From Flavobacteriales bacterium (GTDB taxonomy: Bacteria > Bacteroidota > Bacteroidia > Flavobacteriales > Schleiferiaceae): a stretch of 64,000 nt of DNA. Shown here piece by piece: positions 37,499 to 48,677 of this stretch (its first letter is position 1; every line of letters starts with the position of its first letter). The translations under genes and the position numbers were made by a program. Location: the NCBI GenBank assembly GCA_017795025.1, contig CP051243.1, positions 3,062,897-3,126,896 on the forward strand, given 5' to 3'. The notes beneath the pieces were generated by a model. It searched no databases, had not been told where the DNA came from, and was given only the letters and a program-made list of their open reading frames with translations.

Positions 37499-38764
37499 AT
37501 GCCAAACATCAAAGGGTATTGGTCGGTTTTATTTTTTGCCAGTTTAAGCTATTATACCCTGCTTTTACCTTGGCAAGTGCAATGGATACCGGTAACCTTG
37601 GGAATCATGCTTTCGGGCTTATTTTGGCTACTCGATATGGGTTTCCGCGAGAAGCTACGGCAGCTATCTGGTAATAAGTATGCCGCCCTCTTTTTTGGAA
37701 GTTACCTCCTAGTGGCTTTGGGGGCGAACCACAGTTCGGAGGAAGTTCAGGCTTCGAAAGAATTGTTTTCCAAATTACCTTTTTTGGTTTGGCCCCTGAT
37801 GTTGGGAAGCTTGCCAGCCTTTAGTAAAAAGAAGATTGATCAAATCTTGCGGTTTTTTATTCTCTCGACCGCTGCCTTGGTCTTGGCCTCCTTTGCTTAC
37901 GCTGTTTATCGCTATTCTATTTCAGGCGAGGCCTTTGTGTTTTATTTCGCGGATTTACTGATTCTCTCGGGTGTGCCACCTCATTACCTGGGGATGTATG
38001 TAACCTTTGCCTATGGAATTTTGATGTACCGATTGGTTCAAGGCCGCCCCCTTCTAAAAAGCCTCAGTCTTAATGCCTCTATTTTAGTCCTTTTCATTCT
38101 AGCCATAATCTTCATTTGGGTTAGGATGCAATACTTGCTCTTTATCATGGTGAATGCCTTTTTGGTGGCCCAATACTTTAAAGCCAAACAAGGACGGAAA
38201 ATGGCTATCGGCGCTTTTGGGGGCCTAGTGGCCGTTTTCGTAGTATTGTTATTAAGCATTCCGGGCAGTCGAAAGCGTTTGTTAGATACCTATAATGAAC
38301 TGCGCTCTTTCGAGCAGATGATTGAGAATAAGCAAACCAATCCTCGCAAGTTTCTTTGGCGAGAAGGGCTCGGCGTTATTGCCGATAATTTTTGGTGGGG
38401 CGTAGGAACTGGTTCGGAGAATACCGCTCTCAATAACCGTTTAGAGGAGGTCGATGCTATATTCTGGGATGGCCGCAATACCTACCAGTTGTACGAAATG
38501 CGCTTTAATTACCACAATAGCTTCTTACAAACCTTTGCGGCTAATGGAGTATTTGCCTTTTTAATTCTGCTTACTTTATTTATTTATCCTTTCTTCGACT
38601 TAAAGCGGCATCCCTTTCGAACGGAGGTGCATTTGTTTTTGGGGATTTGCATCTTCAGCTTTATGACCGAAAGCATGTTACAAAGACAAGCCGGGGTGCT
38701 CTTCTTTACTTTCTTCTACGCCTTATTGTTATGCATGCCGCATCAAAGCCCAAAGGCCGAATAG
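37499..38764 (+). CDS. O-antigen ligase/polymerase-like membrane protein (first of two)
   Basis: 421 residues with ~10 hydrophobic helices. The large loop after the middle helices has NFWWGVGTGSENTALNNR and then FNYHNSFLQTFAANGVFAFL, the H-N-x-[FY]-L motif of the WaaL/Wzy family that handles lipid-linked glycans at the periplasmic face. Whether it ligates or polymerises cannot be told. A second protein of the same type is at 47379-48677. It follows the S41 protease by 1 bp. Confidence 0.8.
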   Translation: MPNIKGYWSVLFFASLSYYTLLLPWQVQWIPVTLGIMLSGLFWLLDMGFREKLRQLSGNKYAALFFGSYLLVALGANHSSEEVQASKELFSKLPFLVWPLMLGSLPAFSKKKIDQILRFFILSTAALVLASFAYAVYRYSISGEAFVFYFADLLILSGVPPHYLGMYVTFAYGILMYRLVQGRPLLKSLSLNASILVLFILAIIFIWVRMQYLLFIMVNAFLVAQYFKAKQGRKMAIGAFGGLVAVFVVLLLSIPGSRKRLLDTYNELRSFEQMIENKQTNPRKFLWREGLGVIADNFWWGVGTGSENTALNNRLEEVDAIFWDGRNTYQLYEMRFNYHNSFLQTFAANGVFAFLILLTLFIYPFFDLKRHPFRTEVHLFLGICIFSFMTESMLQRQAGVLFFTFFYALLLCMPHQSPKAE

Positions 38765-38767
38765 GAC

Positions 38768-39604
38768 TCAGTCTTTAAGGTCTTGCTTTTGCTGCAGAGC
38801 TGCCTTATTTATACGGGCTCGTTCGGCATCTAAAAACCATCCGTACTTATTAAAGTATTGCACCGCCGATTTGAGGTGGAGCTTCAGGGCTTTCCAATTT
38901 CGGTACGATCCTTTTTGATAGTGATGAATAATGGATACCTCTGGCCAGTACAAATTTATGCCTTGCAAATTGAGTCGGCGCGACAAATCCACATCCTCCA
39001 TATAAAGAAAGAATCGGGGGTCGAAACCCTGACATGCCTTTATTGCTTCGCTACGGCAAAACATAAAGCAACCGCTTAAAACCGGGACCCTCATTTCCAA
39101 ATCAGGATTTAGGCCCAGGAGCTCATAGTCTTGGGTCTGTTTGCGGAATACAGATTTTAAAGGTGCTGGAAGGAATCTCCGGACGAATAAATCGCTAGGG
39201 CGAGGTAATAACTTTCGTAAGCCCTGATCATCCCCATTGGGGTAGATGATCTTCGGCATTAACAGGGCTACCTCAGGCGATTGCTCCATTTTGGCGTATA
39301 TCGCTTCTATCTGAACGGCCTTAAATTCGATGTCGACATTGGCAATAAGGTAATATTTTGCTTGCCACTGGCGGGCATTTAAAACCAAATTATGCCCCTT
39401 TCCATAGCCCAAGTTCTGCTCGCTAGCTATGTACTTGGTGCCTTTCGGCAGATGCGTGAAATCAAAATTAGTTTGCCCAGGAGCATTATCTACAAATACC
39501 AAAAGGTAGTTCAAGCGCAAGCCATCGAGCCCCTTTAAAAGAGTTTCAATTTCCTGTTTCTTATTGTGATACAAAACCACGGAAATGATGAGGTCGTAGG
39601 TCAT
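38768..39604 (-). CDS. Glycosyltransferase family 2 (WbbL/rhamnosyltransferase-like)
   Basis: 278 residues with the GT-A fold: ISVVLYHNKKQEIETLL at the start, FVDNAPG, EQNLGYGKGHNL, the D-x-D-like NVDIEF (~88-93), GCFMFCRSEAI and FFLYMEDVDLSRRL. Soluble or membrane-associated transfer of a sugar from a nucleotide donor onto the glycan. It is on the opposite strand to most of the locus, divergent from the flippase gene, and converges on the ligase-like gene with 3 bp between stops. Confidence 0.9.
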   Translation of the reverse strand: MTYDLIISVVLYHNKKQEIETLLKGLDGLRLNYLLVFVDNAPGQTNFDFTHLPKGTKYIASEQNLGYGKGHNLVLNARQWQAKYYLIANVDIEFKAVQIEAIYAKMEQSPEVALLMPKIIYPNGDDQGLRKLLPRPSDLFVRRFLPAPLKSVFRKQTQDYELLGLNPDLEMRVPVLSGCFMFCRSEAIKACQGFDPRFFLYMEDVDLSRRLNLQGINLYWPEVSIIHHYQKGSYRNWKALKLHLKSAVQYFNKYGWFLDAERARINKAALQQKQDLKD

Positions 39605-39702
39605 AGATGGAATTGGCCCCTAAGAGTGAACTATTTTTTGTTTTTCCAAGAGGCCTTAAAATTATACTTTGTTCCTTTACGCTCAATTTTCAAGCTCAAA
39701 TC

Positions 39703-40962
39703 TTGCAGCGATTATCCCGCAATATTGGCTATATGGGATTATCCCAAGCCGCAAATTACCTATTGCCGCTGGTTACCTTGCCCTATATTACTAGGGTAGT
39801 AGGTCCTTCTAACTATGGATTAATTGAATTCGCTTCGGTTACCACCGTGTACTTTTCGGCCTTAGTAAGCTATGGTTTTGTGTTTACCGCTACCCGCAAG
39901 GTGGCTGAGCTGCAAAACCGCTATAATCGAATCTCTACTATCTATTCGGTGGTACAGCAGACCAAGTTAATTTTATTGGTTTTAGCGGCCTTATCCTTTG
40001 CCATTTTACTACTTACGGTACCCCAATACCGAAATGAGTTACGGCTCATGTTGTGCGCCTTTCCCTTTGTGATTGGCTGGGCTTTATATCCGGATTTTCT
40101 TTTTCAAGGTCGACAAGACCTGGGGGTAATTGCCCTCGCCAATTTGTTGGTAAAGTCTCTGGGGGCGGTGCTCATTTTTGTGCTCTTGCAAGAGCCAGAG
40201 CAGTTTTACTTTGTATTGGCAATTAATTCCTCTACCCAATTAGCCGCGGCGGCAGTTACCATCCTATATGCCCGTAAAAAATATCCTTGGCTAAAATTTA
40301 GTTGGCAAAGATGGCGCTTGGTAAAGGCTTACTTGTTTAGCGGCTTCTACATGTTTGCCTCTATGTTTTTTACCCGCCTCTATGTTTTCGGGAGTATTTT
40401 GTTTTTAGGCTTTTTATTGCCGCCTGCTCAATTGGGGCTTTTTGCCGCCGCATTAAAACTGATTACGGTAGCGCAGAATTTCCTTGTTATGCCGCTCGGT
40501 AATTCGCTTTATCCCCATTTATCCAATTTATTAAAAACCGATTCCAGCAAGTACCTAAGCGAACGCAAGCGCTTTCGAAATTATCTAATTGCCGCCGGGG
40601 CCTTAGCGGCCTTGGTTACAGTGGTAGGAAAGGATTTGTTAATTGGGCTCTTCTTTGGCGAGGACTATGCCGATGCCGCGCCTTTATTGGCTTTAATGGC
40701 GCCGGTATTTATTTTCACCGCCATTGGTCATTTTAGTTTAAAACAAGGCTTAATGGTTTTAAAAGCGGATAAAGAGAACCTAAGTGCGGTGCTTATTACC
40801 GGGGCTTTATCGGTAATCTTAAATTATCTTTTAATCCAATGGCAGGGCCTTTACGGAGCGGCTTGGGCTAAAATCGGTTTAGAACTATTGCTTGCGGCAC
40901 TGGGCGTTCTGTACTTTAAAAAGGCCCTAGCTAAGCGCGGCTTAACTAAAGTAGCGGCCTAA
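39703..40962 (+). CDS. Polysaccharide flippase (Wzx/MATE-like)
   Basis: About 419 residues and 12 hydrophobic helices. QRLSRNIGYMGLSQAANYLLPLVTLPYITRVVG-type residues open the typical flippase N-terminus, with VGPSNYGLIEFA next. I prefer the TTG at 39703, which begins where homologues do; the ATG at 39607 would add 32 atypical residues and leave 2 bp to the divergent glycosyltransferase gene. The protein moves lipid-linked glycan units across the inner membrane. The gene end overlaps the convergent gene by 21 bp. Confidence 0.88.
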   Translation: MQRLSRNIGYMGLSQAANYLLPLVTLPYITRVVGPSNYGLIEFASVTTVYFSALVSYGFVFTATRKVAELQNRYNRISTIYSVVQQTKLILLVLAALSFAILLLTVPQYRNELRLMLCAFPFVIGWALYPDFLFQGRQDLGVIALANLLVKSLGAVLIFVLLQEPEQFYFVLAINSSTQLAAAAVTILYARKKYPWLKFSWQRWRLVKAYLFSGFYMFASMFFTRLYVFGSILFLGFLLPPAQLGLFAAALKLITVAQNFLVMPLGNSLYPHLSNLLKTDSSKYLSERKRFRNYLIAAGALAALVTVVGKDLLIGLFFGEDYADAAPLLALMAPVFIFTAIGHFSLKQGLMVLKADKENLSAVLITGALSVILNYLLIQWQGLYGAAWAKIGLELLLAALGVLYFKKALAKRGLTKVAA

Positions 40963-41973
40963 CTCCTCTTTGGTTTTAACATCCTCAAAACCCCAAAATT
41001 GGGCGGTTGCTTCCCACTGCTCGGGGCTAATATCCTCCCTTAATTCTCGATAGAGATTGATGAAGAATTTTCGTTCTTCAGCCACAGCTTGTTTGGCATC
41101 CCCAGCGGCTCCGGCAACTTGCATGCGCTTTAACTCTTTGAGGTTAATAGGTTGTTGCTCAATTTCCTGTTTATAGATGTAATGAGGCTTTTTTAGGTAT
41201 ACACAAAAGCCAGTATGGGTGCCCATGGTGTTGCTCATGGTTAAATCGGCCAGTTCGATATGGGTGCGCTGTCGAGCCACAAAATGACGATCAAAGCGAT
41301 GACCATTGGTTACAACTTTAAAGCCTTCCGATTCGTAAGCCGCCACTTTTTCGGGATCCCGAGCATCGAGGTAATACAAACAAATGAGCACGGTGTCAAA
41401 GTCCTTGGCTACCCGCTTTATCTCACGAATAAAGCCATCTTCATCATAGGCGATTTTAATATGCTTAGCACTGTGAAAGGGGTATACCAAAAGGGTTTTT
41501 CCTAGGCTTTTCTTCAGTGTTTTCATTTCCTCTGCCTCGAGCAGGGCCGATGCGTAATGAAGATAGGGGCCAATAGCAATACTCTCCTTCTGGGGGATTT
41601 TGGATTTTAAAATTTTACGCCTCGCCTCACTCATGGTAATGATGCGTGGAAAATGCCAATGGTATTGATCAGGATGAACAATACCCCCTAAAAACAATCC
41701 GTGCTCTAGGTAGGCTTTTAAATCTTGCTCTAGGCCGGCGTATTTTTTTAGATAGGAAGCATAACCGTAAAGGTTATTGTCGATTACGCGTTCTTCTGGT
41801 CCATAGGGAATTTCAGCCGATAGCTGCTGGTAATCAAAGATGCTTAGCTTTTTGCGACGTTCAATTTCGGCCGCCACCGAACTTCCGTTTTTCAGCCTAT
41901 AGGCTTGATACATGGCTTGTTCTAAAAGGGGCTGGGAGGCGGCGAGACGTTTTAAACGATCCTTTAACGACAA
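40942..41973 (-). CDS. Unrecognised polysaccharide-locus protein (343 aa)
   Basis: Soluble, with no signal or membrane helix. Features: VIDNNLYGYASYLKKYAGLEQDLKAYLEHGLFLGG-type N-terminal motif, YPFHSAKHIKIAYDEDGF near 165, FDTVLICLYYLD, KVVTNGHRFDRHFVARQ and SNTMGTHTGFCVYLKKPHY. The arrangement suggests two Rossmann-like halves and a GT-B style glycosyltransferase, which is an inference. Its position between the flippase and a sugar-modifying operon supports a role in the same glycan. Confidence 0.65.
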   Translation of the reverse strand: MSLKDRLKRLAASQPLLEQAMYQAYRLKNGSSVAAEIERRKKLSIFDYQQLSAEIPYGPEERVIDNNLYGYASYLKKYAGLEQDLKAYLEHGLFLGGIVHPDQYHWHFPRIITMSEARRKILKSKIPQKESIAIGPYLHYASALLEAEEMKTLKKSLGKTLLVYPFHSAKHIKIAYDEDGFIREIKRVAKDFDTVLICLYYLDARDPEKVAAYESEGFKVVTNGHRFDRHFVARQRTHIELADLTMSNTMGTHTGFCVYLKKPHYIYKQEIEQQPINLKELKRMQVAGAAGDAKQAVAEERKFFINLYRELREDISPEQWEATAQFWGFEDVKTKEELGRYFS

Positions 41974-42038
41974 TGGAAAAATTTTTGGGCAAGATACAGG
42001 GGATTCTTGACTTCTTTCTTCTCCTTAGCGCAATTCCC

Positions 42039-42065
42039 TTGGCCCGAGGCTTCTTCGTACCTTTG
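42039..42065 (+). promoter_or_regulatory. Promoter of the nonulosonate operon
   Basis: TTG at 42039-42041, a 16-bp spacer and TACCTTTG at 42058-42065 match the Bacteroidota promoter pattern, 17 nt upstream of the ATG at 42083. The seven downstream genes touch or overlap, so this could drive all of them. Confidence 0.6.
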
Positions 42066-42082
42066 CCCTCTCAGCTTTGGAA

Positions 42083-42628
42083 ATGAGTCAACTGCGTAAG
42101 CATTTAAAATTCGGCCTCCCTCAAAAATGGCGTGCCTTTCGGCAGAGATTACGCCTTGGAGCATTAGGTAAAGGTGTTTGGATTGAAAAAAGGGTAGAGC
42201 TCCTGCGCTATCCTAAGAACATCTTTATTCATAGTGATGTGGTGCTTAAGGAAGGTACTAAGATTTGCGCCTGTAATGCCCAAGCCCAAGTGAAGATTGG
42301 CGAGAGAACCACTATCGGTTACCATAATTTCATTTTCGCTAGTGCCGGAATTGAAATAGGCGACGACTGTTTAATTGCGCCTTTTGTGTACATCGTTGAT
42401 TCCGATCATGGAATAAAACGTGCTGAATTAATCAATCGTCAGCCCAATCAAACCGCAGCGGTAAAAATTGGCAATGGGGTGTGGATAGCCAGCAATGTAA
42501 CCATTCTTAAGGGGGTGAATATTGGCGAAGGTGCCGTAATTGCGGCCAACTCCGTGCTTAATCAAAATGTACCGCCCTACGAAATTTGGGGAGGTAGCCC
42601 GGCCAAAAAAATTGGAGAACGTGAGTAA
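42083..42628 (+). CDS. Hexapeptide-repeat acyltransferase (first of two)
   Basis: 181 residues from the ATG at 42083. The left-handed beta-helix is visible as [LIV]-G-x-x-x-x hexads (VKIGERTTIGYHNFI, IGDDCLIAPFVYIVDSDHG, VKIGNGVWIASNVTILKGV, IGEGAVIAANSVL), ending in the usual GSPAKKIG. The catalytic His is in DSDHG. Likely O- or N-acetylates a sugar of the glycan with acetyl-CoA. The stop overlaps the next start by 8 bp. Confidence 0.9.
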   Translation: MSQLRKHLKFGLPQKWRAFRQRLRLGALGKGVWIEKRVELLRYPKNIFIHSDVVLKEGTKICACNAQAQVKIGERTTIGYHNFIFASAGIEIGDDCLIAPFVYIVDSDHGIKRAELINRQPNQTAAVKIGNGVWIASNVTILKGVNIGEGAVIAANSVLNQNVPPYEIWGGSPAKKIGERE

Positions 42629-43322
42629 TTCGGTGGGTATTGTTATTCTTGCTCGCTTGTCATCTACACGCTTGCCGGGCAAAGCTTTAAAGGAAATTGC
42701 CGGTAAAAATGTATTGACCCATATCCTAAACCGCCTGCAAGAAGTAGTTCCCAGCCATCAGATTCTCCTCGCTTGTAGTACGGAGACTTCCGACGATGCC
42801 CTTGAGCAATTCGCTGCAAGGCAAGGCATAGGATGCTATCGAGGGAGTTTGAGCCGAGTGGGGGAGCGATTTTATGAGGCGGCCCAATCTTTAAATTGCC
42901 AGTATGCCGCTCGGATCAATGGCGACAATCTATTTCTGGATCCGGCGGTGCTGCAGCAGATGGTGCTAAAGGCCCAAACAGGTGCCTATCGCTTTTTATC
43001 CAATGTACAAGGCCGCACCTTCCCAAAGGGAATGAGTGTCGAAATTGTGGATATGGAATATTACGGGCTTAAGCTTGATCAAATTAAGCAGGATGCCTAT
43101 TGTAACGAACACGTGATGGTTTGCCTTTATCAGGACCCAAAACCCGAAGATCATTATTATCTGAAGAATGAGATTTTGCCCGAAGCTGCAGGAATTCAAC
43201 TAGCCTTAGATACCCCAGAAGATTTTGCCCGCAGTAAATTTATGCTGGAGCAGATGCCAACTGGGCAATACGATTTGAAAACCACATTTAAGTATTACCA
43301 GAAGTATGAAGCAGAATTTTAA
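42621..43322 (+). CDS. SpsF-like cytidylyltransferase
   Basis: 233 residues from GTG at 42621; homologues begin right at VGIVILARLSSTRLPGK, so the earlier ATG at 42540, inside the acyltransferase, is rejected. The nucleotide-binding R-x-x-S-T-R-L-P-G-K signature is intact, followed by LACSTETSDDALEQFA, CYRGSLSRVGERFYEAA, ARINGDNLFLDP and FPKGMSVEI. The family (SpsF, NeuA relatives) activates sugars with CTP. It overlaps neuB by 17 bp, so its substrate is probably the product of that enzyme or a related sugar. Confidence 0.9.
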   Translation: MSNSVGIVILARLSSTRLPGKALKEIAGKNVLTHILNRLQEVVPSHQILLACSTETSDDALEQFAARQGIGCYRGSLSRVGERFYEAAQSLNCQYAARINGDNLFLDPAVLQQMVLKAQTGAYRFLSNVQGRTFPKGMSVEIVDMEYYGLKLDQIKQDAYCNEHVMVCLYQDPKPEDHYYLKNEILPEAAGIQLALDTPEDFARSKFMLEQMPTGQYDLKTTFKYYQKYEAEF

Positions 43323-44322
43323 AGGAAAGCATGGTCCTCTCTTAATCGCCGAAATCGGCGGAAATCATGAAGGGGACTTCGAATATGCCAAGAAACTCTG
43401 CCAACTGGCAATCGATACCGATGTAGACATGGTGAAATTCCAAATCTATACGGGCGACTCGCTGGTTTCACGCCTGGAAAGTCCGGTTCGTAATAAGCAC
43501 TTCAAAAAATTCGAATTAAGTAAGGAACAGCATATTGAACTGGCCCAAATGGTTAGCGAGGCCGGACTTATGTACACCTCATCCGTTTGGGATTTGCAAG
43601 CCATGGAGTGGATAGACCCTTACATCCCGATTTATAAAATTGGCTCCGGCGATTTAAATGCCTATCCGGTAATAAAGGAAACCGCTGCTACTGAGAAACC
43701 CCTCATTCTTTCAACGGGTTTATCTACTGAGGCCGAGGTGCTCGATGCGGTAGCTTACATTCAAAGCTGTAATCCTTTGTATAAGGACCCCAATATGTTG
43801 GCGGTTTTACAATGTACTAGCATGTATCCGATTAATCCAAGCGATGCCCACCTGAGCGTGATGAAAAGCTTTAAGGAGAAAACCGGTTTAACCATCGGTT
43901 ATTCGGATCACACCGAGGGAAGCAAGGCGCTTCAATATGCGGTGGCTATGGGGGCAGAGGTTTTGGAGTTTCACTTCACCGACCAAAGGGAGGGAAAAAG
44001 CTTTAGGGATCATAAAGTTTCCTTGATGCCCGATGAGGTAAAAGCCTTGATTGAGGAAATTAAGCTTATAAAAGCTTACCAGGGAAACCCATTAAAGAAT
44101 CCCACAGCGATAGAAATAGAGAATGGCCATGAATTGTCATTTCGCAGAGCCGTTTATCCATTAAAGGACCTAAAGGAAGGCACTGAGCTAAAGGAGGAGC
44201 ACCTCACTGTTTTACGACCTAACCACGGTATTGACGCCCGCGAGTATGATCGGGTCTTGGGTAAAAAGCTAAAAGTGGCCGTAAAGGCGCATCAAAAATT
44301 AACCTGGGACATTTTAGAATGA
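43306..44322 (+). CDS. neuB: NeuB-family nonulosonic acid synthase
   Basis: 338 residues with two domains. The TIM-barrel synthase (~1-270) condenses an N-acetyl-hexosamine with phosphoenolpyruvate (IAEIGGNHEGD, MVKFQIYTGDSL, KIGSGDLNAYPV, ILSTGLSTEAEV, GYSDHTEG, EFHFTDQREGK). A SAF/antifreeze-like domain follows (~280-338; AVYPLKDLKEGTELKEEHL). The product could be neuraminic, legionaminic, pseudaminic acid or a relative; the sequence does not say which. No epimerase, dehydratase or aminotransferase for making its sugar substrate is in the window. Confidence 0.92.
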   Translation: MKQNFKGKHGPLLIAEIGGNHEGDFEYAKKLCQLAIDTDVDMVKFQIYTGDSLVSRLESPVRNKHFKKFELSKEQHIELAQMVSEAGLMYTSSVWDLQAMEWIDPYIPIYKIGSGDLNAYPVIKETAATEKPLILSTGLSTEAEVLDAVAYIQSCNPLYKDPNMLAVLQCTSMYPINPSDAHLSVMKSFKEKTGLTIGYSDHTEGSKALQYAVAMGAEVLEFHFTDQREGKSFRDHKVSLMPDEVKALIEEIKLIKAYQGNPLKNPTAIEIENGHELSFRRAVYPLKDLKEGTELKEEHLTVLRPNHGIDAREYDRVLGKKLKVAVKAHQKLTWDILE

Positions 44323-44942
44323 TTGGCGTACAGTACTTTCTTCGTGATTTTCGTCCGCGCTTTTACGGATATCTTACCAAGCTTATCTACGCTGCGAAAA
44401 ATGTTCGGATAGGACCTGACTTTCGCTGTGATAGCATTCCAAAAATATTGATTGATAAAGGGGCTCGGTTGCAAATCGGTACTTCGGTGGAATTGCGACG
44501 GAATGTTGAAATTCGCGTTCACGGAAGCTCACAAACCAGTATTGGGTCTAATGTTCGGATTGATAGAGGGGTACGTATTTTATCGGCTAACCAAAGTCAA
44601 ATAAATATTGAAGACGGCGTGCGAATTGGCCTCTACAGCGTACTTAATGGTGGCGACAACATTAGAATTGGTGCCAAGAGCTTGGTTTCGGGTTTTGTTT
44701 ACTTGCAAACTAGTATGCACGGTTTTAAAAATAAGGCGGTTAGGGTACAGGAGCAAGGCTATAACCATGCTCCGGTTATTTTAGGAGAAGACTGTTGGCT
44801 AGGTACACATGTAGTAGTTTTACCCGGTGTAAACCTTGGCAAGGGCAGCGTAGTGGGCTCGAATGCCGTAGTAAACAAATCGGCAGAAGCCTATAAAGTA
44901 TTAGGCGGTATCCCCGCAAAAGAATTAAAGGAACGAACATGA
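44319..44942 (+). CDS. Hexapeptide-repeat acyltransferase (second)
   Basis: 207 residues. A long left-handed beta-helix with hexads (LQIGTSVELRRNVEI, IGSNVRIDRGVRI, IEDGVRIGLYSVL, IGAKSLVSGFVYL) and a C-terminal GSVVGSNAVVNKSAEAYKVL and GIPAKELK. The catalytic His is in TSMHGF. It overlaps the neuB stop (ATGA) and its own stop overlaps the next gene (ATGA), so it is translated with them and likely modifies the same sugar. Confidence 0.9.
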   Translation: MIGVQYFLRDFRPRFYGYLTKLIYAAKNVRIGPDFRCDSIPKILIDKGARLQIGTSVELRRNVEIRVHGSSQTSIGSNVRIDRGVRILSANQSQINIEDGVRIGLYSVLNGGDNIRIGAKSLVSGFVYLQTSMHGFKNKAVRVQEQGYNHAPVILGEDCWLGTHVVVLPGVNLGKGSVVGSNAVVNKSAEAYKVLGGIPAKELKERT

Positions 44943-46327
44943 GCAGCATGGAACCCCTAGTTTCGGTATACATCACCAATTACAACTACGAACGTTTTAT
45001 TCGTGCTTCTATCGAAAGTGTATTGGCGCAAAGCCTACAGGACTTTGAGTTAATCATCATTGACGATGGCTCTAAAGATGGCAGTAGAGCTATTATTGAG
45101 GAGTATCGGGAGCACGAAAAGGTCACCATCATTTACCAGCAGAATAAAGGTCTTAACATTACCAATAATGTGGCGATGCGGGTGGCCAAGGGGAAGTACC
45201 TTATGCGGCTTGATGCCGATGATTATCTGGTTCCAGAGGCTTTAGAAAAGATGACGGCCCTTTTAGAGGCCGACGACAACTTGGGTTTGGTGTTCCCCGA
45301 CTATTATTATGTGGATGCAGACGGGAATATCACTGGGGAAGAAAGACGCCATAATTTTGAGAAGGAAGTAAGCTTATACGATCAGCCGGCACATGGGGCC
45401 TGTACGATAATACGCTTGGCTTTCCTTAAAAAGATTGGCGGTTATAATGAAAGTTTTACCTGCCAGGATGGTTACGATTTATGGCTAAAGTTCATCATCC
45501 ATTACTCGGTAATGAATATCAATGAACCTTTGTTTTATTACCGTCGGCATGGGTCTAATCTAACCACTAATGAGGAGCGCATCCTAGAAACTCGCCGGGC
45601 TATAAAAGAGACTTTTTTAGACCTCAGTAGTATCGAAAAAAGTACCATTGCGGTAGTTCCAGTGCGGAATACGAAGATTAAGGGACAGTCTATTCCCTTG
45701 TTCCAATGGGGAGAGGAAACGCTCTTGTCAGCAAAGGTAAATGCCCTATTAGAGGCACGTAGTGTTTCGCAAGTCTACTTAATTTCTGAAGACTTGGATA
45801 TCCTGAGGTATGCCCAAGAAAAATTTGGTTCGAGGCCTGAAGTAAGCGTTTTGGAACGAGAAACCCGTTTGGCGGGCCCTAACCAAACCTTGGCGGCAAC
45901 GGTGCAAATTGCTACTGAACATGCAGCTTTCCAAAGCAGTGATTACCGTTTTGTGATGATTGCGGCTTTAGAATACCCTTTTGTGACCTCCGCTATTTAT
46001 GACGATGCGGTTAATACGGTCGAGTTGTTTAAATCCGACTCCGCTTTAAGTGTACGACCCGATAATAAGGCTTATTACCGTCATACGGGTCACGGTCTTC
46101 AGCCCATTTTGGATCAAGAGAAGTTTACCCGAATTGAACGGGAGGCTCTATATAGAGCGGCCGGTGGTATAATGGTGGCTACTCGAAAAAGTTTCCAAGA
46201 ACATGGAAAGATAAACGCGGGAAGGATGAGTCATATAATTGTTGATGAAACCACTGCTTTTGGTATTCATTCGGACTTTGACTTCAGTATTTTTAAAGCC
46301 ATGGAATTAAACCAAATTGAAAGCTAA
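44939..46327 (+). CDS. GT2 glycosyltransferase fused to a CMP-sugar-synthetase-like domain
   Basis: 462 residues in two parts. Residues ~5-225 are a GT2 transferase (VSVYITNYNYERFIRASIES, IIDDGSKDG, D-x-D as LDADDY near 90-95, CQDGYDLWLKF, YYRRHGSN). Residues ~235-455 have the NeuA-like nucleotidyltransferase plan (STIAVVPVRNTKIKGQSIPL, VNALLEARSVSQVYLISED, VMIAALEYPFVTSAIYDDAV, a late DFSIFKAME). The CMP-NeuAc synthetase RGGSKRxPxKN loop is replaced by VRNTKIKGQS, so activity of this half is uncertain. The reading frame is continuous, with no sign of frameshift. Confidence 0.85.
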   Translation: MSSMEPLVSVYITNYNYERFIRASIESVLAQSLQDFELIIIDDGSKDGSRAIIEEYREHEKVTIIYQQNKGLNITNNVAMRVAKGKYLMRLDADDYLVPEALEKMTALLEADDNLGLVFPDYYYVDADGNITGEERRHNFEKEVSLYDQPAHGACTIIRLAFLKKIGGYNESFTCQDGYDLWLKFIIHYSVMNINEPLFYYRRHGSNLTTNEERILETRRAIKETFLDLSSIEKSTIAVVPVRNTKIKGQSIPLFQWGEETLLSAKVNALLEARSVSQVYLISEDLDILRYAQEKFGSRPEVSVLERETRLAGPNQTLAATVQIATEHAAFQSSDYRFVMIAALEYPFVTSAIYDDAVNTVELFKSDSALSVRPDNKAYYRHTGHGLQPILDQEKFTRIEREALYRAAGGIMVATRKSFQEHGKINAGRMSHIIVDETTAFGIHSDFDFSIFKAMELNQIES

Positions 46328-47431
46328 ATGGCGAATCTGGTAGAGGAACTAATGATTCAATATGCAGCTTATTTGGCGCCTGTATTGGCATTTGTGGTTA
46401 CCTATTTTTCAATACCGGCTATTATTCGACTTAGCCTAGTTAAGAAATTATACGACCAACCCGACGAGCGCAAGAAACACAATACCCGTATTTCACCTTT
46501 AGGGGGCATGGCCATCTTCGGGGGGATGATTATCAGCTTTGTTTTTAGCACCGCACACTTGGCGAATCCTGCCCTTAATTCGGTACTAGTGGCGCTTTTT
46601 GTGCTGTTTATAACGGGTGTTAAAGATGATTTATACCCCCTGGTTCCTTATAAAAAGTTATTGGGACAGCTGATTGCTGTGGGGGTGGTGGTTATCCAGG
46701 GCGATGTGCGTTTGGTTAGTTTTTATGGTCTCTTTGGCGTGGGGGAGCTTCCTTATTTTGTGAGTGTCCTATTGAGTTTGTTCTTCTTCTTAGCCATTAT
46801 CAACTCCTTTAATTTTATTGATGGGATTAACGGTTTAAGTGCTGGTATAGGGGTGGTGATTAGCCTAACTTATGTTTTGGTATTCAATTACCTCCACTCC
46901 GAATTATTTCAAATCTTAGCCCTAAGTATTGTTGGATCTCAATTGGCCTTTTTGCGCTTTAATTTGGTGAACGCCAAAATATTTATGGGCGATTCGGGCT
47001 CCATGATTCTTGGCTTCCTAGTGGCTTTGTTGAGCATCTCCTTTTTGCAAATAAATGAGCTGCGAGAAAACTTCCTGCTTGAGAAGATTGATGCCATGGT
47101 TTTTGCCTTTGCGATTATCATCATACCGGTAGTGGATACCATTCGGGTGGTGTTTATCCGCATTTTTATTTTGAAGCGTTCCCCCTTCTCCGCCGACCGG
47201 AATCATATTCATCACACCCTATTGGATATCGGCTTAAGTCATGTGCAGGCTAGCTTGAGCTTAATGGCCGTAAACATTGCATTTGTAGTCTTAGCCTTTT
47301 ACTTAAACGACTACCTGCGGGCCACCTATTTGTTGATAAGCCTATCTTTGTTGGCGCTGCTACTTTCGCAGCTACCTTTTGTTATTAAAAGCCAACAAAA
47401 ACGCCTTGGGAACTATAAACCTCAGAACTAG
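46328..47431 (+). CDS. MraY/WecA-family phospho-glycosyltransferase
   Basis: 367 residues, ~11 transmembrane helices. Family motifs are intact: GVKDDLYPL (~98-106), NFIDGINGLSAG (~160-171), IFMGDSGSMILG (~218-229) and DRNHIHHTLLD. The enzyme starts glycan assembly by moving a sugar-1-phosphate from a UDP-sugar to undecaprenyl phosphate, WecA-like. The ATG follows the previous stop with no gap, and the C-terminus overlaps the ligase-like gene. It may initiate the glycan decorated by the nonulosonate genes (inference). Confidence 0.93.
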   Translation: MANLVEELMIQYAAYLAPVLAFVVTYFSIPAIIRLSLVKKLYDQPDERKKHNTRISPLGGMAIFGGMIISFVFSTAHLANPALNSVLVALFVLFITGVKDDLYPLVPYKKLLGQLIAVGVVVIQGDVRLVSFYGLFGVGELPYFVSVLLSLFFFLAIINSFNFIDGINGLSAGIGVVISLTYVLVFNYLHSELFQILALSIVGSQLAFLRFNLVNAKIFMGDSGSMILGFLVALLSISFLQINELRENFLLEKIDAMVFAFAIIIIPVVDTIRVVFIRIFILKRSPFSADRNHIHHTLLDIGLSHVQASLSLMAVNIAFVVLAFYLNDYLRATYLLISLSLLALLLSQLPFVIKSQQKRLGNYKPQN

Positions 47432-48677
47432 TCTGCAAAGCAATTCCGGACGATTTCGGCTGCTCATTAGCCTTTTGGTTTTTAGTTTGCCTTTAGGGCA
47501 GATGGCCTTCAGTAACATTATCTTATTGCTGCTTTTTATTCAAAGTCTAATCGCTTTTCGTTGGAAAGATTGGCGTTTGGGATTTAGGGAGCCCCTGTGG
47601 TGGACCCAAGCGGCCTTCTACCTTTTTTTAACCGCTAGCCTGCTTTGGGCCGATAATGTGGATTATGGGCTTCGGCAATTGGAAACTAAAACTTCATTTT
47701 TTTTAGCCCCACTTTTTCTACTTGCTGGCCAGGAACTTTATCCGAAGAATAGTCGCACTTGGGCATTAAAAGCATTTTGGTGGGCCTGTTTGGCGGCCGT
47801 ATTTATAGCACTGGCCTATGCGGCATACCGTTCATTTATGGCCGGTGGTTTTTATGAGGAAAGTCCTTTCGGTAGACGCTATTTTTTCGCCTATACCCAT
47901 CTCGCGACTCCCTTAATGCACCCTGGGTATTTAGCAAGCTATCTAGCCATTGGCCTATTCGCAGCCATTGAACTTCAGCATAGCGAAACAAAGAAGGCGC
48001 AGGTTTGGTATTACCGAATCTCCATAGTACTCTTCCTAGGCTTTATGCTGATGTTGCAGGCGCGAATTAATTTATTGGCCCTATTCGGGGTAGTGGTTAT
48101 TGCGGCGTTATACATCGCTTGGAAACGTAAGGCGTACTTCTGGTTGGCCTTGCCCCTTATTCCGGTTTTGGCCTTGGGCTTGTTTTTTAGTTTGGCTTCA
48201 CCAGAACTTAAAGAGCGGTATTTTCAATTACCCAATTTCGAGTATGATATTGAGGGGAGCGACTTTAATAGCGCCACGTACCGTTTGGCCGAATGGAAGT
48301 GTGCTTCAGATGTGATTGCCGAAAACTTTTGGTTTGGAACTGGTATTGGAGATAATCAGCAAGCTTTGTTTGAAAGCTACCGACAAAACCGTTTTTGGGA
48401 AGGAGTAGAGAAGGAATACAATGCCCATAATCAGTATTTGGAAACTATGATTGCCGGAGGTTTTGTTGGGCTTTTGATACTTTTAATTTCGATTGCATAT
48501 ACCATGTGGCGTGCCTGGCGGCAGATGGATTACCTCGCCCTGTGCACGCTTATCTTTCTTGTAATTGCCATGCTCACCGAATCGATGTTCGAGCGGATTT
48601 GGGGGGTGCTTATCTTCACGATCTTTATTCCCTTCCTCCTCCAGCAGCCTAAAGAATCCGATTCAAACGCTTATTAA
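47379..48677 (+). CDS. O-antigen ligase family membrane protein (second of two)
   Basis: About 420-432 residues, 11 hydrophobic helices. The periplasmic loop has AENFWFGTGIGDNQQALFES and YNAHNQYLETMIAGGFVGLL, the same H-N-x-[YF]-L motif as the protein at 37499-38764. The start is uncertain: TTG at 47379 or 47406, both inside the WecA-like gene; no ATG is available before the first helix. The end overlaps the dnaG end by 29 bp, tail to tail. Likely ligase or polymerase of the glycan. Confidence 0.82.
   Translation: MLLKANKNALGTINLRTSLQSNSGRFRLLISLLVFSLPLGQMAFSNIILLLLFIQSLIAFRWKDWRLGFREPLWWTQAAFYLFLTASLLWADNVDYGLRQLETKTSFFLAPLFLLAGQELYPKNSRTWALKAFWWACLAAVFIALAYAAYRSFMAGGFYEESPFGRRYFFAYTHLATPLMHPGYLASYLAIGLFAAIELQHSETKKAQVWYYRISIVLFLGFMLMLQARINLLALFGVVVIAALYIAWKRKAYFWLALPLIPVLALGLFFSLASPELKERYFQLPNFEYDIEGSDFNSATYRLAEWKCASDVIAENFWFGTGIGDNQQALFESYRQNRFWEGVEKEYNAHNQYLETMIAGGFVGLLILLISIAYTMWRAWRQMDYLALCTLIFLVIAMLTESMFERIWGVLIFTIFIPFLLQQPKESDSNAY

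Follow-up and report, generated by a model that had tools for sequence, protein, structure and literature searches.

A putative family 2 glycosyltransferase fused to a degenerate NeuA-like domain in predicted nonulosonic acid gene clusters

Introduction

The window analysed here, a stretch of 64,000 nucleotides from a Flavobacteriales bacterium, contains a gene whose product combines a family 2 glycosyltransferase (GT2) with a half resembling NeuA, the CMP-sialic acid synthetase, in which the CTP-binding loop is altered. The gene lies close to genes for a NeuB-family synthase and a separate cytidylyltransferase, which raises the question of what a degenerate cytidylyltransferase would do when attached to a transferase. 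The first-pass annotation offered two answers, a single protein able to activate a sugar and then transfer it, or one in which the NeuA half has become a donor-binding domain, and regarded either as a new arrangement. According to a paper from 2020, no bacterial enzyme had by then been reported to transfer legionaminic acid to cell surfaces (PMC7439481), and Maf enzymes, described since, put nonulosonates on flagellins (PMC11339370). The fusion family is a further concrete candidate for nonulosonate transfer to cell surfaces.

Results and Discussion

The fusion gene and its neighbours

The cluster comprises the following features, all on the forward strand:

42077..42628, +, hexapeptide (LbH) acyltransferase upstream of SpsF (PF00132)
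42540..43322, +, SpsF-like cytidylyltransferase with the loop RLSSTRLPGK; the true start is uncertain, at about 42620
43306..44322, +, NeuB-family nonulosonic acid synthase (PF03102, E 7.2e-61) with a SAF domain
44319..44942, +, hexapeptide (LbH) acyltransferase between NeuB and the fusion (PF00132)
44939..46327, +, GT2 - pseudo-NeuA fusion gene, ATG start, 462 aa, single uninterrupted frame
44939..45622, +, N-terminal GT2 (GT-A) domain of the fusion, D92-A-D94-D95 and Q176-D177 intact
45632..46324, +, C-terminal pseudo-NeuA domain (pNeuA) of the fusion, assigned by family profile, AF2 model, residue alignment and tree
46328..47431, +, downstream neighbour, Glycos_transf_4 (WecA-like) glycosyl-1-phosphate transferase (PF00953, E 1.2e-35)

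The two halves are joined in one continuous frame, as had been proposed. Residues 9-146 of the protein matched PF00535 in Pfam with an E of 7.4e-30, and the D-x-D metal motif that the first-pass annotation had described as intact is present as D92, D94 and D95, which were invariant among 46 aligned sequences together with Q176 and D177. The GT-A fold of this half was indicated by Foldseek matches to 6p61, K4CP and SpsA, and UDP-sugar and dTDP structures were among its best solved GT2 relatives. From these intact motifs, catalysis is predicted to reside in the GT2 half of the protein.

The ends of the SpsF-like, NeuB, hexapeptide acyltransferase and fusion genes overlap and the SpsF-like protein, which matched PF02348 across 42627-43319 with an E of 1.9e-25, keeps its signature R-L-S-S-T-R-L-P-G-K, in agreement with the operon that had been suggested. 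The NeuB gene is the sole PF03102 match in the genome. The genome contains two CTP_transf_3 genes, one of which is the SpsF-like gene of the window, while the other (173.7 bits) is probably a putative KdsB. A Pfam scan of positions 37499-48677 of the window recognised no dedicated nonulosonate precursor genes, and two Epimerase_2 genes of the genome lie outside the fusion locus. On the opposite strand, a gene at 40942-41973 adjoins the cassette and encodes a 343-aa protein that has no Pfam or NCBIfam match; it was considered as a core partner and rejected because its family occurred in 6 loci including the window.

Distribution of the fusion

The suggested search for the same fusion in other genomes was productive. 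In a seed-based scan of genome contigs 48 distinct loci were kept, and in 45 of these public loci the fusion aligned over at least 400 residues. The three left out were L055, where the halves occupy two frames, L056, with only a GT2 near a contig end, and L057, a partial gene that begins at a contig end. As 45 further fusions were obtained among 48 loci, the joining of the halves is not a chance event. Twenty-three of the 45 fusion loci were from Bacteroidota, 6 from Pseudomonadota, 3 from Omnitrophota and 2 each from Bdellovibrionota and Nitrospirota; Bacillota, Thermodesulfobacteriota, Elusimicrobiota, Actinomycetota and Woesearchaeota each contributed one locus and 4 were unplaced. The single placements are possibly binning errors, as most loci are from metagenome bins. 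Cultured carriers include Marivirga sericea DSM 4125 and Flavobacterium aciduliphilum DSM 25663. The fusions form a cross-phylum protein family that connects GT2 enzymes with genes for nonulosonic acids.

The C-terminal domain is rare. A search of its own genome found one copy, and among 88 genomes of its own family a match was found in 9 at E<=0.001, with 7 (own genome included) at E<1e-79. In the phylum sample only the own genome, 1 of 247, gave a match at E<=1e-35. A relative on a plasmid of Azospirillum argentinense is 30.5% identical and is labelled in RefSeq only as 'glycosyltransferase family 2 protein', leaving the second half of the fusion unnamed in an annotated record. Its gene cluster includes a member of the N-acetylneuraminate synthase family, and it adjoins an NTP transferase gene that has the SpsF-type loop. 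The claim of a new arrangement holds to the extent that no description of the fusion was found in open-access full text, among the matches listed, and fails in that the fusion is not unique to this genome.

NeuB was found near the fusion in 44 of the 45 loci, counting L039, where it is broken up into short fragments lying in several frames. A further cytidylyltransferase, either separate or fused to NeuB, was present in 41 of 45; the exceptions were L049 and three loci with short flanking sequence on at least one side (L024, L034, L038). The loci contained 48 matches above 100 bits to the SpsF profile, comprising 41 with the SpsF-type loop RxxSxRxxxK and 7 with a NeuA-type loop. Of the 23 Bacteroidota loci, 14 share with the window an unbroken gene order that runs from an acyltransferase through SpsF and NeuB to a further acyltransferase or a methyltransferase and then to the fusion, with methyltransferases called from one representative per cluster.

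Descent of the C-terminal half

Kinship with NeuA is not demonstrable from the window sequence alone, because its C-terminal 230 residues drew no match at E<=1 from either Pfam or NCBIfam; a search of the PDB with the same residues returned one unrelated chain (E 0.032) and nothing else. A set of 47 C-terminal domains was therefore assembled from the window, the 45 fusions and L055, of which 46 are different since those of L021 and L023 are identical. The profile of this set matched CMP-sialate and related synthetases in the PDB with E values of 3.7e-18 to 1.1e-11, led by 9t4z (3.7e-18), 6ifd (1.8e-17) and 1eyr (2.1e-15). At E<=0.1 a match to PF02348 was obtained for 35 of the 47 domains and to TIGR03584 (PseF) for 39, the window member having neither.

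The AF2 model of the window C-terminal half had a pLDDT of 93.6. Superposition of this model on VcCMAS (6ifd_B) gave a Z of 24.6 and an rmsd of 3.0 over 225 residues, while 9t4z_A and 1eyr_A gave Z values of 23.9 and 23.3, and the Foldseek TM scores against 9t4z_A, 1eyr_A, 6ifd_B and 6ifd_C were 0.77-0.83. When a tree was built from 72 rows, a branch with 100/100 support separated the 47 pNeuA domains from the rest, which fits a single origin of the degenerate domain. The 12 SpsF-like rows grouped apart from pNeuA, and the 13 NeuA rows did not form one clade; several long branches meet in the tree. Judged by the family alignment and the predicted fold, the C-terminal half is a NeuA by descent that keeps the NeuA fold over the whole domain. 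The relationship to NeuA and the cytidylyltransferases put forward in the first-pass annotation was thus borne out by the family profile and the predicted structure.

Loss and retention of active site residues

Residue positions were transferred from NmNeuA and VcCMAS through an alignment that included 11 controls, which were stand-alone NeuA-like proteins from the loci, two of them nearly the same. Two more NeuA-like proteins, those of L050 at 14838 and L055 at 15737, were not used as controls, and the divergent L018 and L019 were kept. L008 and L009, two weak matches from the 88 genomes of the same family as the window genome, retain the NeuA loop and were used as controls, not as fusions.

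In the available parts of the published reports Arg71 of NeuA reads cytosine and Arg165 binds carboxylate (PMC2901514, PMC6580227), Arg12 of VcCMAS touches the beta-phosphate (PMC6580227), and K21A abolishes the activity of the E. coli enzyme (PMC2901514, PMC6580227). The first of these also reports that in NmNeuA D209A leaves no measurable activity and D211A lowers kcat 15,000-fold (PMC2901514). The window C-terminal half has the loop VRNTKIKGQS at the CTP-binding position, exactly as first described, and retains R243 (Arg12), R307 (Arg71) and R398 (Arg165). Lys16, Lys21 and Asn22 are replaced by I247, I252 and P253, the Ser15 position is K246, and Gln104, Asp209 and Asp211 are replaced by A343, G442 and H444.

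This pattern extends through the family. The equivalent of the cytosine-reading Arg71 is arginine in all 47 domains and that of Arg12 in 43, and the carboxylate-binding Arg165 position is basic in 44 (R 26, K 18), although the pairing of this last residue is uncertain, the HMMER alignment with 1EYR giving R401, after the invariant Glu, and MAFFT giving R398. The P-loop residues are largely lost (Ser/Thr15 in 10 domains, Lys16 in 0, Lys21 in 1, Asn22 in 0), Gln104 is absent from all 47, and Asp209 and Asp211 are found in 2 and 4 domains but never together. In the controls R12, S15, K21, N22, R71 and D211 were each present in 11 of 11, followed by K16 (9), R165 (8), Q104 (7) and D209 (5), so that Lys21, Asn22 and Asp211 divide pNeuA from the controls almost cleanly, while Asp209, Gln104 and Arg165 are not constant among the controls either. 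The idea that one protein activates and transfers the same sugar is unsupported, because the CTP and Mg residues are lost across the 47 aligned domains.

Conservation was also found at positions specific to the family, with E400 and H432 present in 47 of 47 domains and D367 and H382 in nearly all, which argues for a reused site rather than decay. The mean pairwise identity was 32% for the C-terminal half versus 57% for the GT2 half. The putative dimerisation arm (Nm 132-178, an assignment made here) had a mean entropy of 1.71 versus 2.57 for the P-loop.

Proposed function

From the protein families, motifs and gene order, a nonulosonic acid would be made by NeuB, activated by the SpsF-like enzyme and decorated by the acyltransferases, and the fusion would work in the transfer step. 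Within this operon the C-terminal half is very probably a dead NeuA domain, from which the residues that bind CTP-Mg and serve the pyrophosphate chemistry have gone, with the fold, the cytosine arginine and the basic carboxylate position kept. It may quite plausibly have a role in ligand recognition, as a non-catalytic module that would hold for the transferase half either a CMP-nonulosonate or the nonulosonate alone. Recognition of the CMP-sugar or sugar is the most likely role because Arg71 is retained in 47 of 47 domains and the carboxylate position is basic in 44 of 47. These residues are compatible with the donor-binding domain of the first-pass annotation, while the absence of the ribose-binding Asn22 (0/47) and the phosphate-binding Lys21 (1/47) speaks against it and means that a normal CMP pocket is not intact. 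Arg12 is a further argument against recognition by analogy with VcCMAS, where its contact is the beta-phosphate, a group absent from a CMP-sugar. The fusion as a whole is tentatively assigned as a putative glycosyltransferase of nonulosonic acid surface glycan assembly with a repurposed pseudo-NeuA domain. The more specific proposal that pNeuA captures CMP-nonulosonate from the neighbouring SpsF and feeds it to the fused GT2, making this a GT2-based nonulosonate transferase outside the known sialyltransferase families, is rather unlikely. Sialyltransferases usually have no DxD according to the available part of one report (PMC7439481), and as the GT2 half does have this motif a CMP-sugar may not be its donor. 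If the repurposing is real, the family would exemplify the conversion of a nucleotidyltransferase to a recognition function.

The main rival is a dimerisation or scaffold domain that binds no small ligand and either pairs transferases or docks to the SpsF-like or NeuB protein, which is less probable than a recognition role without being far-fetched. NeuA enzymes are described as dimeric, their active site being formed where the subunits meet (PMC6580227), the putative arm ranks with the better conserved segments of pNeuA, and the phosphate and ribose contacts are lost; the conservation of Arg71, a pocket residue in NeuA, and of Arg12 argues the other way, although either might serve the structure. 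It is also conceivable, with a low probability, that the GT2 half takes an ordinary NDP-sugar, as its DxD and its UDP-sugar and dTDP relatives would suggest, and that pNeuA recognises a nonulosonate already on the acceptor through the basic residue at the carboxylate position. Such an arrangement gives no obvious reason for an invariant cytosine-reading Arg71.

The two remaining explanations are both very improbable. A decaying remnant that has no function would account for the lower conservation of the C-terminal half, but both halves share one frame in 45 of 48 loci (the others being the overlapping frames of L055 and the contig ends of L056 and L057), and invariant and family-specific residues are present. 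The dN of the C-terminal half in four close pairs, at 0.23-0.45, was also weighed against decay, although dS took a value, 2.7, in only one of 8 comparisons and was undefined in the other 7. Least probable is an active cytidylyltransferase that uses other residues, so that the protein would both activate and transfer its sugar. The NeuA fold and the fusion itself would suit such an enzyme, four of the 47 members have D/E/N at the Asp209 place with D/E at the Asp211 place, and 4 of 45 loci have no other cytidylyltransferase in the sequence covered. Against it, the complete Asp pair, Lys16, Asn22 and Gln104 are each absent from every member, the two aspartate substitutions in NmNeuA were severely damaging in the part of that study available (PMC2901514), and another cytidylyltransferase is nearby in the other 41 loci.

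Comparison with known systems

A fusion of a glycosyltransferase to NeuA is also found in Cj1143 of Campylobacter jejuni, where CgtA, from another transferase family, is joined to NeuA and both halves are active; no confirmation of this precedent was found in open-access full text, among the matches listed. In Cj1143 the NeuA is active, unlike pNeuA, and a NeuA half with intact CTP and Mg residues is absent from the window protein and from its family. The sps legionaminic acid cluster of Bacillus subtilis has a putative cytidylyltransferase, SpsF, and a GT2 gene together with the nonulosonate pathway, as here. There SpsA is reported to be dispensable for Leg transfer, and the available part of the text makes no mention of a pseudo-NeuA domain (PMC7439481). 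In contrast to that cluster, no aminotransferase, dehydratase or hydrolase families were found among the Pfam-scanned genes at 37499-48677 of the window. GT2 enzymes such as SpsA share the GT-A fold and DxD-type motif with the fusion, which differs in carrying pNeuA and in lying beside NeuB in nearly all loci. NeuA/CMAS (1EYR, 6IFD) and the CMP-Kdn synthetase 9T4Z resemble pNeuA in fold (Z 23-25), in Arg71 and Arg12 and in the basic Arg165 position; pNeuA differs from them in having neither the P-loop Lys and Asn, Gln104 nor the metal Asp pair, and in being fused to a GT2.

Other frames observed in the loci

In L055 (7998-9370) the GT2 and pseudo-NeuA are in two overlapping frames, with a TTG overlapping the TGA stop; this may be a real gene split or an assembly frameshift, and was therefore not taken as evidence for modularity. 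NeuB and a cytidylyltransferase share one frame in L035, L037, L044, L046, L047 and L050, and in reverse order in L045 and L048, where the cytidylyltransferase has a NeuA-type loop. The NeuB of L013 (6128-8002) lies in an unusually long frame of 625 codons and is probably joined to the following acyltransferase. A degenerate NeuA-like stretch was found at the N-terminus of a different frame of 499 codons in L052 (3134-4630), and in L049 (4865-6355) a second, very divergent GT2 and NeuA-like frame, approximately 21% identical to the window protein, lies upstream of the first fusion.
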